Of a stretch of DNA of 20,557 bases, positions 1,386-17,300 are shown piece by piece (position 1 is the stretch's first letter; each line of letters opens with the position of its first letter). The position numbers were made by a program, and so were the translations under genes. This stretch comes from a virus. Under the pieces are notes generated by a model. It was not told where the DNA came from. It did not search any database and saw only the letters and a program-made list of their open reading frames with translations. The stretch is taken from IMG/VR virus record IMGVR_UViG_3300023180_000508, positions 1 to 20,557 of that record. One strand, given 5' to 3'.

Positions 1386-1930
1386 ACTATAAGATCTCCG
1401 TTTACATTAAATGATAAAATAATTCTTTCTTCTTCTGATGTATTTGGATTTGTAAAATGATTTATAAATGATGGGAAGAAAATTAATGACCCTTCCCGCA
1501 CATTTCTAAATTCTTCTCTGATGATGTGACCAGTTCTAAAATCATTGAATGGTGCTATAAACTGAGTTGAAGAATGTACTTTATGATTAAATTTAACAAA
1601 ACATACAGCACTAATACCAGTCATACCATGATTATGAATATCATGATGCATTCCTTTTTTTCCAATTTCGATCCAAGAATTTTTTACTTCATATTCACCA
1701 GTTGTTGATATTGTTTTATATAAATCACTTATTTCTTTTTCAAAAATTCTGGCAACATCTTCATTGTAATTTGTTTTTTCATCATAAAAATCTGTCAAGA
1801 TATTCTCTGGACCAGTTTTTGTAAAATTGTTTTGATGAACTAATTTTTCAATCTCAGATTTTTTTTCTTTCCAATTAGAAACTCTTACATGAAATAATGG
1901 AATTGGAAATAAATCAATTTTAATAAGCAT
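1382..1930 (-). CDS. 2OG-Fe(II) oxygenase-like protein (2OG-FeII_Oxy_5 type)
   Basis: This is a 182-aa protein. I place the start at the ATG at 1930-1928 rather than at the in-frame ATG 24 bases earlier, because GGAGGAG sits seven bases upstream of the chosen start. The core HxH motif is H99-N-H101, followed by GMTGISAVCFVK. A distal His158 lies in FINHF and Arg169 in ERIILSFN. These are the expected metal ligands and 2-oxoglutarate-binding Arg of the small 2OG-Fe(II) oxygenase family common in cyanophages. Family members are predicted hydroxylases with mostly unknown substrates. The start overlaps the end of the upstream oxygenase gene by 11 bases, and the stop overlaps the halogenase start (ATGA), so the three are translationally coupled. 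An extra His-His-Asp precedes the HxH (95-97), which leaves the exact iron ligands uncertain. Confidence 0.82.
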   Translation of the reverse strand: MLIKIDLFPIPLFHVRVSNWKEKKSEIEKLVHQNNFTKTGPENILTDFYDEKTNYNEDVARIFEKEISDLYKTISTTGEYEVKNSWIEIGKKGMHHDIHNHGMTGISAVCFVKFNHKVHSSTQFIAPFNDFRTGHIIREEFRNVREGSLIFFPSFINHFTNPNTSEEERIILSFNVNGDLIV

Positions 1931-2524: not shown

Positions 2525-2809
2525 TTAGTTAATAACAACTGTTGGACCCGACCCTGTTTTTACAGCTTGTTCCATAAGGTAATGCTCTACCATACGAAAA
2601 TCGTCAAATACTCTAATTTGATCTTCAAATTCTACCCACCAATAAACATCTTCCTCCCCAACATATGCTGGATTATAATCAGATGCTTCTAGTTCTTTTG
2701 TTACATGCTCCTTTAAAACAACTTCAATAACCATGTGAGTATCTTCACCATGCTTTTCTTCTGCTTTAATAGCAAGTTCCATAATTGGTAGTTCACCAAC
2801 CAATGCCAT
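2525..2809 (-). CDS. Conserved hypothetical protein, first gene of the halogenase operon
   Basis: This 94-aa acidic protein has no family I can name. It starts at the ATG at 2809-2807, eight bases after a good GAGGAG. The sequence has an N-terminal helix-like part rich in Glu and His (EEKHGED), then IEVVLKEHVTKELE, and a DVYWWVEFEDQIRVFDDFR block. It has no signal peptide, membrane segment or cysteine. Five bases separate its stop from the next oxygenase gene, making it the first cistron of the operon that ends with the halogenase. Its position suggests an accessory or regulatory role for the cassette, but that is only inference. Confidence 0.75.
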   Translation of the reverse strand: MALVGELPIMELAIKAEEKHGEDTHMVIEVVLKEHVTKELEASDYNPAYVGEEDVYWWVEFEDQIRVFDDFRMVEHYLMEQAVKTGSGPTVVIN

Positions 2810-2870: not shown

Positions 2871-2899
2871 TTGACGGTAAACCTTACCTGTAGTATAAT
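2871..2899 (+). promoter_or_regulatory. Strong sigma70-type promoter for the plus-strand operon
   Basis: TTGACG (2871-2876) and a perfect TATAAT (2894-2899) are separated by exactly 17 bases. Transcription would start around 2906, leaving a very short leader before the AGGA-type ribosome binding site and the ATG at 2924. This is a host sigma-type promoter of the sort used for early phage genes, unlike the TATAAATA late sites in front of the virion genes. Confidence 0.85.
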
Positions 2900-2923: not shown

Positions 2924-3346
2924 ATGAGCATCAAAATTTGTTTACTCAGAAGTGGAGAAACTGTAATTGGTAATCTCAAAGAAGTTCTTGATCCACAAGA
3001 AAATAAATCACTCGGGTATAAAATTGAACACCCATATGTCATCGATTATCAATATAGAAAAGCTTTAAAATTAGGCGATGAAGGTGTTGAAGGTGCTGTT
3101 GGAAATGATGCTGAATACGCTTTTAGGGCATGGGGCGCACTTTCAGCAGAAAGAGAATTTAATTTTAATTACGATTTTGTTGATGTCATTTACAAACCAC
3201 ATAAGGCAGTGGAAGAATCATATAACATGATCGTCAATCACTGGATTGAAGAAAATACTCATAGTATTACAGTAGAAGGAACAAAATCAGTCACAACTAG
3301 GGGAATTGACCTCACTCAGCAACTTGATATGAGTGAAGGAGAGTGA
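2924..3346 (+). CDS. Conserved hypothetical phage protein, possible small-barrel (LSm-like) N-terminus
   Basis: This 140-aa protein is preceded by GAGGA six bases before the ATG and by the strong promoter at 2871-2899. The N-terminus (SIKICLLRSGETVIGNLKEV, then a strand containing YKIEHPYVIDY) has the alternating strand pattern of a small barrel. I have seen similar short proteins in T4-like marine phages, and an LSm/Hfq-like fold is possible but unproven. The middle (residues 47-75) is Gly- and Glu-rich, and the C-terminus (after residue 97) looks helical and then polar. It is the first gene of the plus-strand operon; its stop lies two bases before the chosen start of the next gene, whose ribosome binding site is inside this coding sequence. 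Confidence 0.75.
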   Translation: MSIKICLLRSGETVIGNLKEVLDPQENKSLGYKIEHPYVIDYQYRKALKLGDEGVEGAVGNDAEYAFRAWGALSAEREFNFNYDFVDVIYKPHKAVEESYNMIVNHWIEENTHSITVEGTKSVTTRGIDLTQQLDMSEGE

Positions 3347-3348
3347 TA

Positions 3349-4170
3349 ATGAAAATTGAAGATTTTAATCTATATGATTACAAAGATGCTTTTCAAATTA
3401 ACGAAGACTTTGAAATCACCACAGGTGAATATCAAGACTTAAAATATATCACTGTAGATAATTTTTTTCTGTATCCAGAAAAAATAACTGAAATTTTAAA
3501 AAATATTCCTATCAATGATAGAACTAAAGTCATTGAAGAGTATAAAAAAAGTGGAGTTGATATTTATGAAAATCCATCATTAGTTCAGTACCTATCCAGT
3601 ATATCTTTTGAACCAATCTCATACATTTATTATAAAATTTTGAGTGAAGAAGATTTCATTCATCATTCTTATGATCCTATGACTGAATCTGAACAACTTG
3701 GAGCTGAATTAACTCAATTTGTTTACTACACTAACATTTTCCATCCGAAGATGAATCATATTAGTCATAACTATATGCCGCATTTTGATAAATTTCAGTA
3801 TGTTTCTAGTGTCTGTTTAAGTGAAACCACTGAGGATACTGGGATCTCTTTTTATACTCTAGATCATGAAAATGAATCATATCAATCTATTGAATCTATT
3901 GTAAACATAGATTCTTTGGAAACTAAGAGTAATATTAGAGATAGATTAAATTCGATGCATACGCCTGATTATGAAGTATCGGAATATTATAATTCAGATC
4001 ATATCGAAAAAAATTCTTTATTTAAAAAATATTTCACAATACCATGTGAATATAATAAACTAATCATTTATCCTGGTATTTTCTGGCACGCCGCACAGTA
4101 TAATTCAGAAGTAAATGACAACATTAGATATACATTTAATGCTGGATACACACCAACTGATAATTTATGA
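3349..4170 (+). CDS. Oxygenase-like protein with H-x-D...H...R pattern (DUF6445-like), paralogue 1
   Basis: This 273-aa protein starts at the ATG at 3349, which has AAGGAG seven bases upstream; an in-frame GTG six bases earlier is too close to that site. The core is PHFDKFQYVSSVCLS, giving H145-x-D147. It continues to a GISFYTL strand, a long variable insert, then LIIYPGIFWHAAQ (H247) and RYTFNAGY (R260). H-x-D...H...R is the iron facial triad plus 2-oxoglutarate Arg of dioxygenases. The layout resembles DUF6445-type proteins, which I associate with tryptophan-halogenase operons of bacteria. The next gene is a diverged tandem copy. The product is probably a cytoplasmic oxygenase on the same pathway as the halogenase encoded on the opposite strand; the substrate is unknown, and the family name needs confirmation. 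Confidence 0.72.
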   Translation: MKIEDFNLYDYKDAFQINEDFEITTGEYQDLKYITVDNFFLYPEKITEILKNIPINDRTKVIEEYKKSGVDIYENPSLVQYLSSISFEPISYIYYKILSEEDFIHHSYDPMTESEQLGAELTQFVYYTNIFHPKMNHISHNYMPHFDKFQYVSSVCLSETTEDTGISFYTLDHENESYQSIESIVNIDSLETKSNIRDRLNSMHTPDYEVSEYYNSDHIEKNSLFKKYFTIPCEYNKLIIYPGIFWHAAQYNSEVNDNIRYTFNAGYTPTDNL

Positions 4171-4958
4171 TGAATGTTATAGATGAAAAAAATAATATAT
4201 CCTTATCAGAGTTTATTCGTTACACTGATAAGGATATATTAGAACTTACTAAAATTAATGAAAACTGTTCTATAGAAAAATATAAAGTTGAAAAATTAGA
4301 ATATGTAAAAATATACAATTTATTTTTGTATCCAGAAGATCTAAAAAAATTTTTATGTAAATTTCCATGTGAAGATAGATTTTTAAGCCTATCAGAAACT
4401 GGATCTGAATTAACTTCATCCGCTCCAGGTTTTCAGCAAACTTTTGATAAACATTACTTCAGAAAAATTTCTGAATTTATATCTAAAGTAATGCAAGAAA
4501 ATAATTTAAGTCAACATTATTGGGCAGTTCCATCCTGGGAATACTATAGTAATTGTATGTATTCGGGAATGAAATCATATCAAAAAAATAATCTTCCCCA
4601 TGTAGATCCATTTGATTATGCCTGTAACATGTATTTGTCAAATATAGAAAATACAGGAACTACATTTTTTACCTTTATTGGTGATGAACATGAGTATTAT
4701 GATGTAAAAGAATTACATAGAAGAAGTAAAAAAGATCATAATTTATTCTTAAAACAAGTTTTCGAAAATTCTATGGATAAAGATTTTGTTGATTGGAAAA
4801 CTTTTGACGGTAATTCTAGATACAGAAAATATCATATTATTGATGCTGAGTATAATTCAGCATCAATTTACAAGGGATGTTATTGGCATAGTATTAGATT
4901 TGATTCTCAAATAAAAAATCAAATTAGATATTCTTTAGTTGGAAGTGTAAAAAAATAA
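4167..4958 (+). CDS. Oxygenase-like protein with H-x-D...H...R pattern (DUF6445-like), paralogue 2
   Basis: This 263-aa protein overlaps the stop of the previous gene (ATGA at 4167-4170). No Shine-Dalgarno sequence is visible, so translational coupling is likely; a second ATG follows immediately and could be the true start. It is clearly related to the upstream protein. NLFLYPEDLKKFLCKFPCEDR (residues 51-71) matches NFFLYPEKITEILKNIPINDR there. PHVDPFDYACNMYLS supplies H145-x-D147, CYWHS supplies H241 and IRYSLVGS supplies R254. Identity outside these blocks is low, so the duplication is old. All predicted ligands are kept in both copies, which argues against one being a dead paralogue. The stop codon abuts a bidirectional terminator. 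Confidence 0.72.
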   Translation: MMNVIDEKNNISLSEFIRYTDKDILELTKINENCSIEKYKVEKLEYVKIYNLFLYPEDLKKFLCKFPCEDRFLSLSETGSELTSSAPGFQQTFDKHYFRKISEFISKVMQENNLSQHYWAVPSWEYYSNCMYSGMKSYQKNNLPHVDPFDYACNMYLSNIENTGTTFFTFIGDEHEYYDVKELHRRSKKDHNLFLKQVFENSMDKDFVDWKTFDGNSRYRKYHIIDAEYNSASIYKGCYWHSIRFDSQIKNQIRYSLVGSVKK

Positions 4959-4977
4959 CCCTCTCCTAGGAGAGGGT
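4958..4977. terminator. Bidirectional terminator between convergent operons
   Basis: ACCCTCTCCTAGGAGAGGGT is a perfect 20-base palindrome that folds as an 8-bp stem with a CUAG loop. It is followed by CTTTTATT on the plus strand and by TTATTTTTTT on the minus strand, so it can stop transcription from both sides. Its first base is the last base of the plus-strand stop codon (4956-4958), and the minus-strand gene ends 11 bases away at 4988. Confidence 0.88.
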
Positions 4978-4987
4978 CTTTTATTAA

Positions 4988-14300: not shown

Positions 14301-17300
14301 ACCAGAGAACCTGTGATGTTAAGAAGTGATTCCTTAACAACATAAGGTCCACGGACGAACTGAGATTCAGCAGTACCCTGGAATTCGAAGAGTCCTGTGT
14401 AAGGATAGATAATATCCTCAACGATAATACTACCAAGATCAGTATCACCAGAAGCAATGGAACTTATAGAACCATAATCAACAGATGTTGTGACTGGATC
14501 TGTAATATCTCCATAACTACCGCCAGGTACAAATTCTACAATTGAGGATTCGTTATAATCGTATGTTACTCTTTCAAGTTTATCGCCAATGCTGAAGAGT
14601 GAACCAGAACCAATGAAAGGTCTCGTTCTAGCATAAGGAATAACATGATTGGTGATAATAATTTCACCATAAGATCTGTACCATGGGAAGAATCTCTGAT
14701 CAGTGGGCTTACTTTGACCCTTATAAATCTTAATTGGTGGGCTCTCACGATTCCAGATAAATTTGGGGAAGAAGTTTTCAACAGCAGTACCAGTAATAGT
14801 AAAGAGCTTACCGAGTGGAATCTCATCACCAGGAACCAGAACAATTCCGCCCTGATCAATTTGATCATTTGTTGAAGTTATTACTGATCCATAGTCAATG
14901 GTTGATGTTACAGGATCACTGATTTGTCCATATTCATTAGGATCACCGAGTTCACCAATAGAAGAAATATTATAACTGTATGTTGCTCTTTCAACTCTAT
15001 CACCGATATTGAAGAGTGATCCTTCCCCAATATATGTTGCCTTGGAATATGATTCGGAATTATTCCATACCAGGGACATATCATAGTAACCATCATATGA
15101 TGGTACATAACGAGTATCAGTTGGGAGTGGTTGATGAGTAAATTTAATCTCAGCATAACCAGTCCAGGGGAATCTCTGATACGCAACTGTAGCAGCAGCA
15201 CCGCTGATCTTAAATAGACCATAAGGTTCTTTGATTTCAGAATCAATAATAGAACCATTATCGGTTTCACCTACCGCTATTTCATTAACAAATCCATAAT
15301 CGACTGTTGTTCCAGTAGTGGTAATATCTCCATAATTATTTGGATTGCCAATTTCAAGAACAGCAGATTCGTTATAACTGTATGTCGCTCTTTCAACTCT
15401 ATCGCCAATACTGAAGAGTGATCCAGAACCGACATAATCATCTGTTTGCTTGATAGCAGTTCTTCCAGAGAAGTTGAATAGAACTGTCTCCTCTGGTGGG
15501 TTGTTAGTAATCGATTCAACCAGACCACCAGCAGTGAACAGATTTCCTTGACCAACAAATCTTCTGGATCTAGAATCAGAACTATCACCAGAAATATCGA
15601 ATAGACCATATGGAATAAGTTCTGTATTTGGTACAGTCTGACCAAAATCAGTATCACCTATTGAAGCTTCGGATACCTGACCATAATCTACAGAATTTGT
15701 TACTGTTCCAAGATCACCATAGGATTGCTCTGTTCCTTGTGAAACGATTGAGGAATTATTATAATCAAATGTAGCACTCTCAAGACCACCAGTGAGTGTG
15801 AAGAGAGATCCAGAACATACGGGAGTATATACATGGAAATATCTGTACTCTGAGTAACTACTGACACTGATAGTATCTCTATCGAAATTGCCATTGATAT
15901 CATAAATTTGTGGTGTTGGTTCTTGGAATATTGCTGTGGCAGAACCAGTAAATGAATATATTGATGGAACACTATAGATTATGGTATCTAAAGCAGAAGA
16001 AGAAATCAGTTCAACTCTAGATACACCATAATCATCTATGCCAGTACCAGCTGGTGAAAACTGTGCTAATCTAAATCTAGTAGAAGAAGTTTTTGCTTCT
16101 GTTGGAATAGTAAATGTTTTGGTTACTACACCATTTACACCATCTAGGGAATTTTCGGCAAGAACTATAGCGATGAATGTATATGTAGAACCACCATCAA
16201 GGCTATATGATAGTTGTAGATCTTCGTTAGTGTCTGGTTCTTCACCACCGTTGAGTGAATTTCCTCTAATTACATCAATAGCAATTTCATTATATGAAGT
16301 TGTATTAAATACAAATTCAACTGATCTTGTTACCGCACCATCAAAAGCAATATGTCTTCCAATATTAAATCCACCAGTAGATCCAGTACCAGTTCCAGAA
16401 TCTCTTAATGTTACATTTGTAAGTGTTCCACTGTAGTTACTTACAAAATCATCAGGAAGAATAGTTACATTTCCTGGAATTACATTTACATCTAGATTGG
16501 CAGTGTAATTATCAGTTTGTCTAACAACAGCAGCACCAGTCAGATTATATAATCCAAACTTAACTCCATCGTTAAAATCTAACCCAGCATAATCAGTATC
16601 ACCACTGGAAGATTCTGCTACCTGACCATAATTTTCTATTGTTCCTGCTGATTGATCAACAGTTCCGTAATCATTAGTACCAACAGGTTCTGGTAATGGA
16701 GTATATGCTGAACTGATTCCACTGAAGGTAAAGTCTGTAATACCATAATGATCAAATGTATTTCCACTGGCAAGAGTTTGTTCTACTCTAAAAATGGTAG
16801 ATCCAGTTTTTGCCGCTTCTGGTATCGTTACCGTAACTTCTTTTAGAGCACTAAAAGTAGCATCATTATATCTTACAATAATACCAACTAAAGTGAAACT
16901 TACTCCATTGTCTACACTATACCATAGTCTTAAACTTTCATTATCATTACTATCTGGAGTTTCACCACCATTACTACCATTACCCCTAATAGCATTGAAT
17001 GTAATACTATCATAGTTAGTGGAATTTATTGGGAATGTATCAAATCTTCTCAGTCCAGTATTCTGCTGAGTAATAAAACCGAAACTGAGGTGAGTTCCAA
17101 TATTAAATCCACCAGTAGATCCACTACCAGTTCCTCCAGAACTAACAGTAACATCATCAAATGTTGCTGTATTAATTGTAGTAGTATCATTAGCAAGTAC
17201 TACAAGATCTGGAACAGTCGTTCCAATAAGTTCTGAACTGTACTTGAATGTTGCTCTTTCAATTTTATTGCCAATATTAAACAGAGAACCAGATCCCTGA

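Follow-up and report, generated by a model that had tools for sequence, protein, structure and literature searches.

Two tandem genes of a marine cyanophage encode DUF6445-like proteins that, judging from sequence and predicted models, are very probably catalytically competent 2-oxoglutarate (2OG)-type enzymes. The best explanation of the whole, given about an even chance, is that they are catalytically intact Fe(II)/2OG oxygenases within a conserved oxidative-tailoring module. Pfam lists DUF6445 as a family without known function, and no mention of it was found in the literature searched.

Genomic context of the pair

The window, i.e. the whole stretch of DNA analysed, is the 20,557-base virus record IMGVR_UViG_3300023180_000508, read on one strand. 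Gene content and relatives identify its source as a T4-like cyanophage, and the virus carrying the pair is marine with a cyanobacterial host; nucleotide matches to phage records covered only ~1% of the window. Copy a (P0001, 273 aa; 3349..4170, + strand) and copy b (P0002, 263 aa; 4167..4958, +) overlap by ATGA and follow a gene for a conserved 140-aa cyanophage protein of unassigned function (phrog_431; 2924..3346, +). The opposite strand carries a conserved 94-aa ORF (2525..2809, -), two genes for 2OG-Fe(II) oxygenases of the 2OG-FeII_Oxy_5 type (P0005, 1920..2519, -, and P0004, 1382..1930, -; both PF13759, phrog_81) and P0003 (129..1385, -), a short flavin-dependent-halogenase-like protein of 418 aa (PF04820). 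The flavoprotein gene thus lies ~2 kb from the pair, separated from it by the two oxygenase genes, the 94-aa ORF and the 140-aa gene. Another contig of the same phage, L007, extends to the left of the window into neck genes gp13-gp15; gp13 was also recognised by profile, and the other names within this set are presumed from T4-like phages. L007 lacks the two bases AG at window positions 1877-1878, which breaks the frame of P0004 and is either a true variant or an assembly error.

A sigma-70-like promoter, TTGACG-N17-TATAAT (2871..2899, +), precedes the three-gene unit formed by the 140-aa gene and copies a and b; it is a consensus match only, and such matches over the whole region show no excess (19 vs. 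20.0 in shuffled sequences). A related phage, represented by locus L054 (from an 85-kb contig), has a similar TTGACG-N17-TAAAAT at the equivalent place. The unit ends at a bidirectional, terminator-like stem-loop (4957..4978, either strand). The pair is therefore probably transcribed in its own unit, divergent from the one that is headed by the 94-aa ORF and contains the oxygenases and the flavoprotein. A single operon comprising the pair and the flavoprotein was rejected on account of their opposite strands.

Paralogy, active-site residues and family

The first-pass annotation had described two tandem homologous ORFs of low identity with eight putative active-site residues, and this description is borne out: P0001 and P0002 share 26% identity over ~250 residues (BLASTP E=1e-25), their global alignment scores 18 sd above shuffled sequences, and all eight residues occupy the positions given (H145, D147, H247 and R260 in copy a; H145, D147, H241 and R254 in copy b). 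Both proteins contain the H-x-D...H iron triad of the Fe(II)/2OG dioxygenase superfamily and, at the basic 2OG-binding position, an invariant Arg located 13 residues past the distal His. None of the four residues varies across an alignment of 22 viral relatives, so the motif is not a chance occurrence. When copy a was used as a direct query against phages, no matches were obtained. An origin of the pair as a recent offshoot of the neighbouring 2OG-FeII_Oxy_5 genes was considered and rejected: profile comparison showed no sequence-level kinship, and the pair has therefore not recently diverged from them.

The expected relationship to DUF6445 (PF20043) was confirmed by profile search. The curated Pfam cut-off is 24 bits; P0002 exceeds it (31.8 bits, E=1.8e-7), and P0001, a clear homologue of P0002, falls 0.7 bit short (23.3 bits, E=7e-5). 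DUF6445 was matched in 17 of the 22 aligned viral proteins, and no other Pfam family reached E<=0.01. In the tree, the window proteins belong to a phage-only clade that is split from both core and divergent bacterial DUF6445 proteins (support 99/98), and they do not group with the bacterial core members.

Predicted fold

The AlphaFold models of the pair are confident (pLDDT 86.5 and 82.6), and both display a double-stranded beta-helix fold. The first-pass annotation had anticipated a 2OG dioxygenase family, and comparisons with Foldseek and VIA-align agree, placing both models among the Fe(II)/2-oxoglutarate dioxygenases with top Z scores of 12-14. The P0002 model resembles OGFOD1 (Z 14.4, rmsd 2.7 over 174), the mimivirus L230 lysyl hydroxylase (Z 14.2, rmsd 2.6 over 164), LH3 (Z 14.1, rmsd 3.2 over 179) and an algal P4H (Z 12.8, rmsd 4.0 over 170). 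The P0001 model matches OGFOD1 (Z 12.8, rmsd 3.1 over 176), L230 (Z 12.6) and LH3 (Z 12.2). Fold neighbours of both models further include small-molecule 2OG enzymes (Z 11-12). The structure comparisons span the whole domain, and the H/D/H/R residues map onto the expected strands of the double-stranded beta-helix. A profile search of the PDB with the pair found no chain related in sequence. These results point to DUF6445 as one branch within the 2OG dioxygenases.

An old duplication within a conserved module

L054 contains a module with the gene order and orientations of the window, comprising both copies, two 2OG oxygenases, the flavoprotein and gp13, and differs by one extra DUF-like gene within the 2OG/halogenase unit. 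This gene (L054:6803-7426) lies between those for the two 2OG oxygenases, and its product is a third DUF6445-like protein, shorter than the others, with the H-x-D, distal H and R; the window lacks a counterpart. Orthologues in the window and L054 are 37% (a), 39% (b) and 65% (flavoprotein) identical, compared with 27-31% for a vs. b. In the tree, a pairs with a and b with b (support 100/99), so the duplication predates the split of the two phages. Both copies are old, separately kept orthologues with full predicted active sites, and their ancient and separate conservation argues for two distinct roles. The first-pass annotation had offered two steps, two substrates or a heterodimer as possible reasons for keeping both. 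The dN/dS ratio between orthologues is not counted as evidence, because synonymous sites are near saturation.

The halogenase-like flavoprotein

P0003 matches Trp_halogenase, its best PDB match is VirX1, and it retains the invariant catalytic Lys (K73; K79 in RebH and PrnA). The catalytic Glu, the second E of EPLES, is replaced by Q277, and Gln also occurs here in L054 and P-TIM40. The Glu was located by alignment with RebH, in which EPLES places it at residue 357 (numbered after subtraction of a presumed 20-residue tag). A Glu-to-Gln change is reported to be inactivating (PMC8407142). Two halogenase motifs are also missing: WxWxIP reads WEFNLP and FxxPxxSxG reads FNEPLQAYS, though some halogenases are known without WxWxIP (PMC8407142). 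Because of the Gln and the two missing motifs, halogenation by P0003 is doubtful; the protein may halogenate weakly or be a flavin oxygenase. The earlier description of the pair as lying opposite a halogenase is right as to strand, but P0003 is a non-standard member of that family. A clade of short cyanophage 'tryptophan halogenases' (~360-420 aa; L051:3512-4675, L052:8010-9146 and L023:7998-9074) has the altered motif EPLxAxS or EPMEATS in common and also lacks WxWxIP.

DUF6445-like genes and halogenases in phages and bacteria

Similar gene groups occur in other phages. Nine loci (L016-L019, L032-L035 and L037), whose records partly overlap and come from one clade, have a DUF6445-like gene overlapped by a halogenase gene on the same strand. 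In Syn9 and Syn10, whose gp42 is VirX1, two DUF6445-like genes share a co-directional cluster with two halogenase genes, several 2OG genes and a gene for a JmjC/cupin protein; S-CREM1 has an arrangement of this type with one halogenase. No halogenase was found near the DUF6445-like gene in the stretches examined of the S-ShM2 type (order 2OG-2OG-DUF-2OG), L008-L015, L026 and Syn9 gp213. P-HM1, P-HM2 and MED4-213 each carry a DUF6445-like gene, and a halogenase search of these three gave no match. The link between DUF6445-like and halogenase genes in phages is therefore recurrent and not obligatory, and the genes share an accessory-gene hot spot. As 2OG genes abound in this cyanophage region (ten are reported for S-CREM1; PMC9964418), proximity by itself is a poor argument for a common pathway.

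Two side observations concern annotation of such loci. Syn9 gp51 and gp53 (L022:14412-14930 and 15535-16119), named 'DNA endonuclease V' (phrog_274), weakly resemble 2OG-FeII_Oxy_3 (E=2e-3 and 3e-4) and are probably misnamed. Five 2OG-FeII_Oxy_5-like genes flank the halogenase gene of L056, a 13.5-kb contig assigned to a Maricaulis bin; this contig may be phage DNA binned in error.

In bacteria, the claim that DUF6445 accompanies tryptophan halogenases held in a neighbourhood survey. The genomes, reached through halogenase loci, belonged largely to two orders and two classes, with halogenase-bearing genomes added. Among core DUF6445 genes, defined by a score above 140 bits, 16 of 36 have a tryptophan halogenase gene within 3 kb, nearly always directly adjacent, vs. 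one of 30 divergent genes (Fisher p=1.3e-4, or p=1.8e-4 with 14/31 core genes after removal of the five genomes first picked for their halogenases; these p-values are a rough guide, as related genomes are not independent). In one locus (L140), SapC and Cupin_8 genes are near the halogenase and DUF6445 genes, and in another (L134) a TonB receptor is nearby. A separate case is a Piscinibacter plasmid (L048:2100-9186), where a DUF6445 gene occurs with TfuA-like, carbamoyltransferase and DUF692 genes in what looks like a peptide-modification cluster.

The further suggestion that the phage carries a miniature of the bacterial partnership survives only in part. The association does recur in phages, but many phage relatives have no nearby halogenase, and the window proteins lie outside the core. 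Given that position and the rarity of pairing among divergent members (1/30), the window module should not be read as just a reduced form of the bacterial partnership. The two 2OG oxygenases that also belong to the module, and the doubt over halogenation by P0003, weaken the suggestion further. Direct adjacency of DUF6445 and halogenase genes is likewise absent in the window and L054, where they are ~2 kb apart and divergent, with genes between.

Proposed function and alternatives

In the proposed mechanism, the H-x-D...H triad of each copy would bind Fe(II), the Arg 13 residues past the distal His would bind 2-oxoglutarate, and O2 would be used for substrate hydroxylation, as fold and residues predict. 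The most likely type of substrate would be a protein or peptide side chain, given that peptidyl hydroxylases are the nearest solved structures in fold, although a peptidyl substrate is proposed only tentatively from the models. The old duplication, with the copies retained as separate orthologues, makes it probable that they act on different sites or substrates. The pair, the two 2OG oxygenases and the halogenase-like flavoprotein would together form the oxidative-tailoring module, whose gene content, order and orientation are seen in two related phages (the window and L054) and whose members may act jointly on one target. The chances for and against a functional link of the pair with the flavoprotein module are evenly poised.

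The strongest alternative, somewhat doubtful but a genuine competitor, is that the pair are ordinary accessory 2OG oxygenases of the cyanophage tail-fibre/neck region, active but with no functional tie to the adjacent flavoprotein. The many phage relatives without a nearby halogenase (the S-ShM2 type and L008-L015), the DUF6445-like genes of P-HM1, P-HM2 and MED4-213, which gave no halogenase match, and the location of the pair in its own divergent unit are all consistent with this, but the module's complete synteny with L054, maintained although the pair is only 37-39% identical, and the adjoining of DUF and halogenase genes in three phage arrangements and in bacteria argue for a link. It is unlikely that the module makes or tailors a small molecule of the host or phage, in which case the flavoprotein would halogenate or hydroxylate an aromatic ring and the oxygenases would introduce hydroxyl groups. 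VirX1 is reported to be active in vitro on diverse small aromatics (PMC8407142), and small-molecule enzymes are among the fold matches (Z 11-12); however, peptidyl hydroxylases are the best fold matches, P0003 carries Gln in place of the catalytic Glu, its halogenase motifs are altered, and the module ORFs include no carrier, assembly-line or transport gene.

A structural role is suggested by PHROG 1644, named 'minor coat protein', which is the closest phage family of both window proteins (E=2e-16 and 6.5e-19). The 2OG-dioxygenase fold and the conserved H/D/H/R residues do not back the role that the name implies and make the name itself doubtful. That the two are virion proteins whose enzyme activity has been lost, as the PHROG and RefSeq names would have it, is very improbable in view of the full H-x-D...H...R set invariant in all aligned relatives, the 2OG-enzyme fold of the models, the S-CREM1 record, and the lack of virion data on the DUF6445-like family in the literature consulted. 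The S-CREM1 genome record labels its two DUF6445-like relatives 2OG-Fe(II) oxygenases, and some 2OG proteins of that phage were identified through structure prediction (PMC9964418). The superfamily assignment is hence not wholly new; what is new here is the link to DUF6445 and the doubt over the PHROG name, a propagated name for which a correction is suggested.

Returning to the tailoring module, a more specific version, speculative and improbable as it stands, is a protein-tailoring system in which the paired DUF6445-type dioxygenases, the two 2OG oxygenases and a repurposed, non-halogenating flavoprotein oxidise a defined protein (a tail fibre or host protein), while VirX1-type versions of the system, with a full halogenase, halogenate that protein. 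The literature consulted names no natural role for VirX1. The recurrence of DUF6445-like genes beside halogenase-family genes in marine phages and bacteria offers a concrete, testable idea of halogenase partners, and that of similar gene groups in other marine viruses and bacteria makes a joint role testable.

Comparison with known systems

The DUF6445 profile matches both proteins, and aligned bacterial members share the H-x-D...H...R order, but the window proteins score 23-32 bits vs. ~150-270 for core bacterial members and form a separate phage clade. With OGFOD1/Tpa1, L230, LH3 and P4H, the pair shares the whole-domain fold, the iron triad and the basic 2OG-binding residue; the sequences differ widely (8-14% identity, no sequence-level PDB match), and side-chain hydroxylation by the pair is suggested by the fold resemblance. 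In the bacterial SapC - Cupin_8 - Trp halogenase - DUF6445 clusters (L140, and the TonB type L134), a halogenase-family gene also adjoins a DUF6445 gene, but these have core DUF6445 proteins and full-length halogenases, and no SapC or TonB receptor was recognised in the phage module. The Syn9/Syn10 and S-CREM1 clusters likewise group genes for a halogenase-family flavoprotein, 2OG-FeII_Oxy_5 proteins and DUF6445-like proteins near tail genes. However, all their genes are on one strand, their halogenases are full-length with the catalytic Glu and WxWxIP, and their DUF6445-like genes belong to other branches than the window pair.
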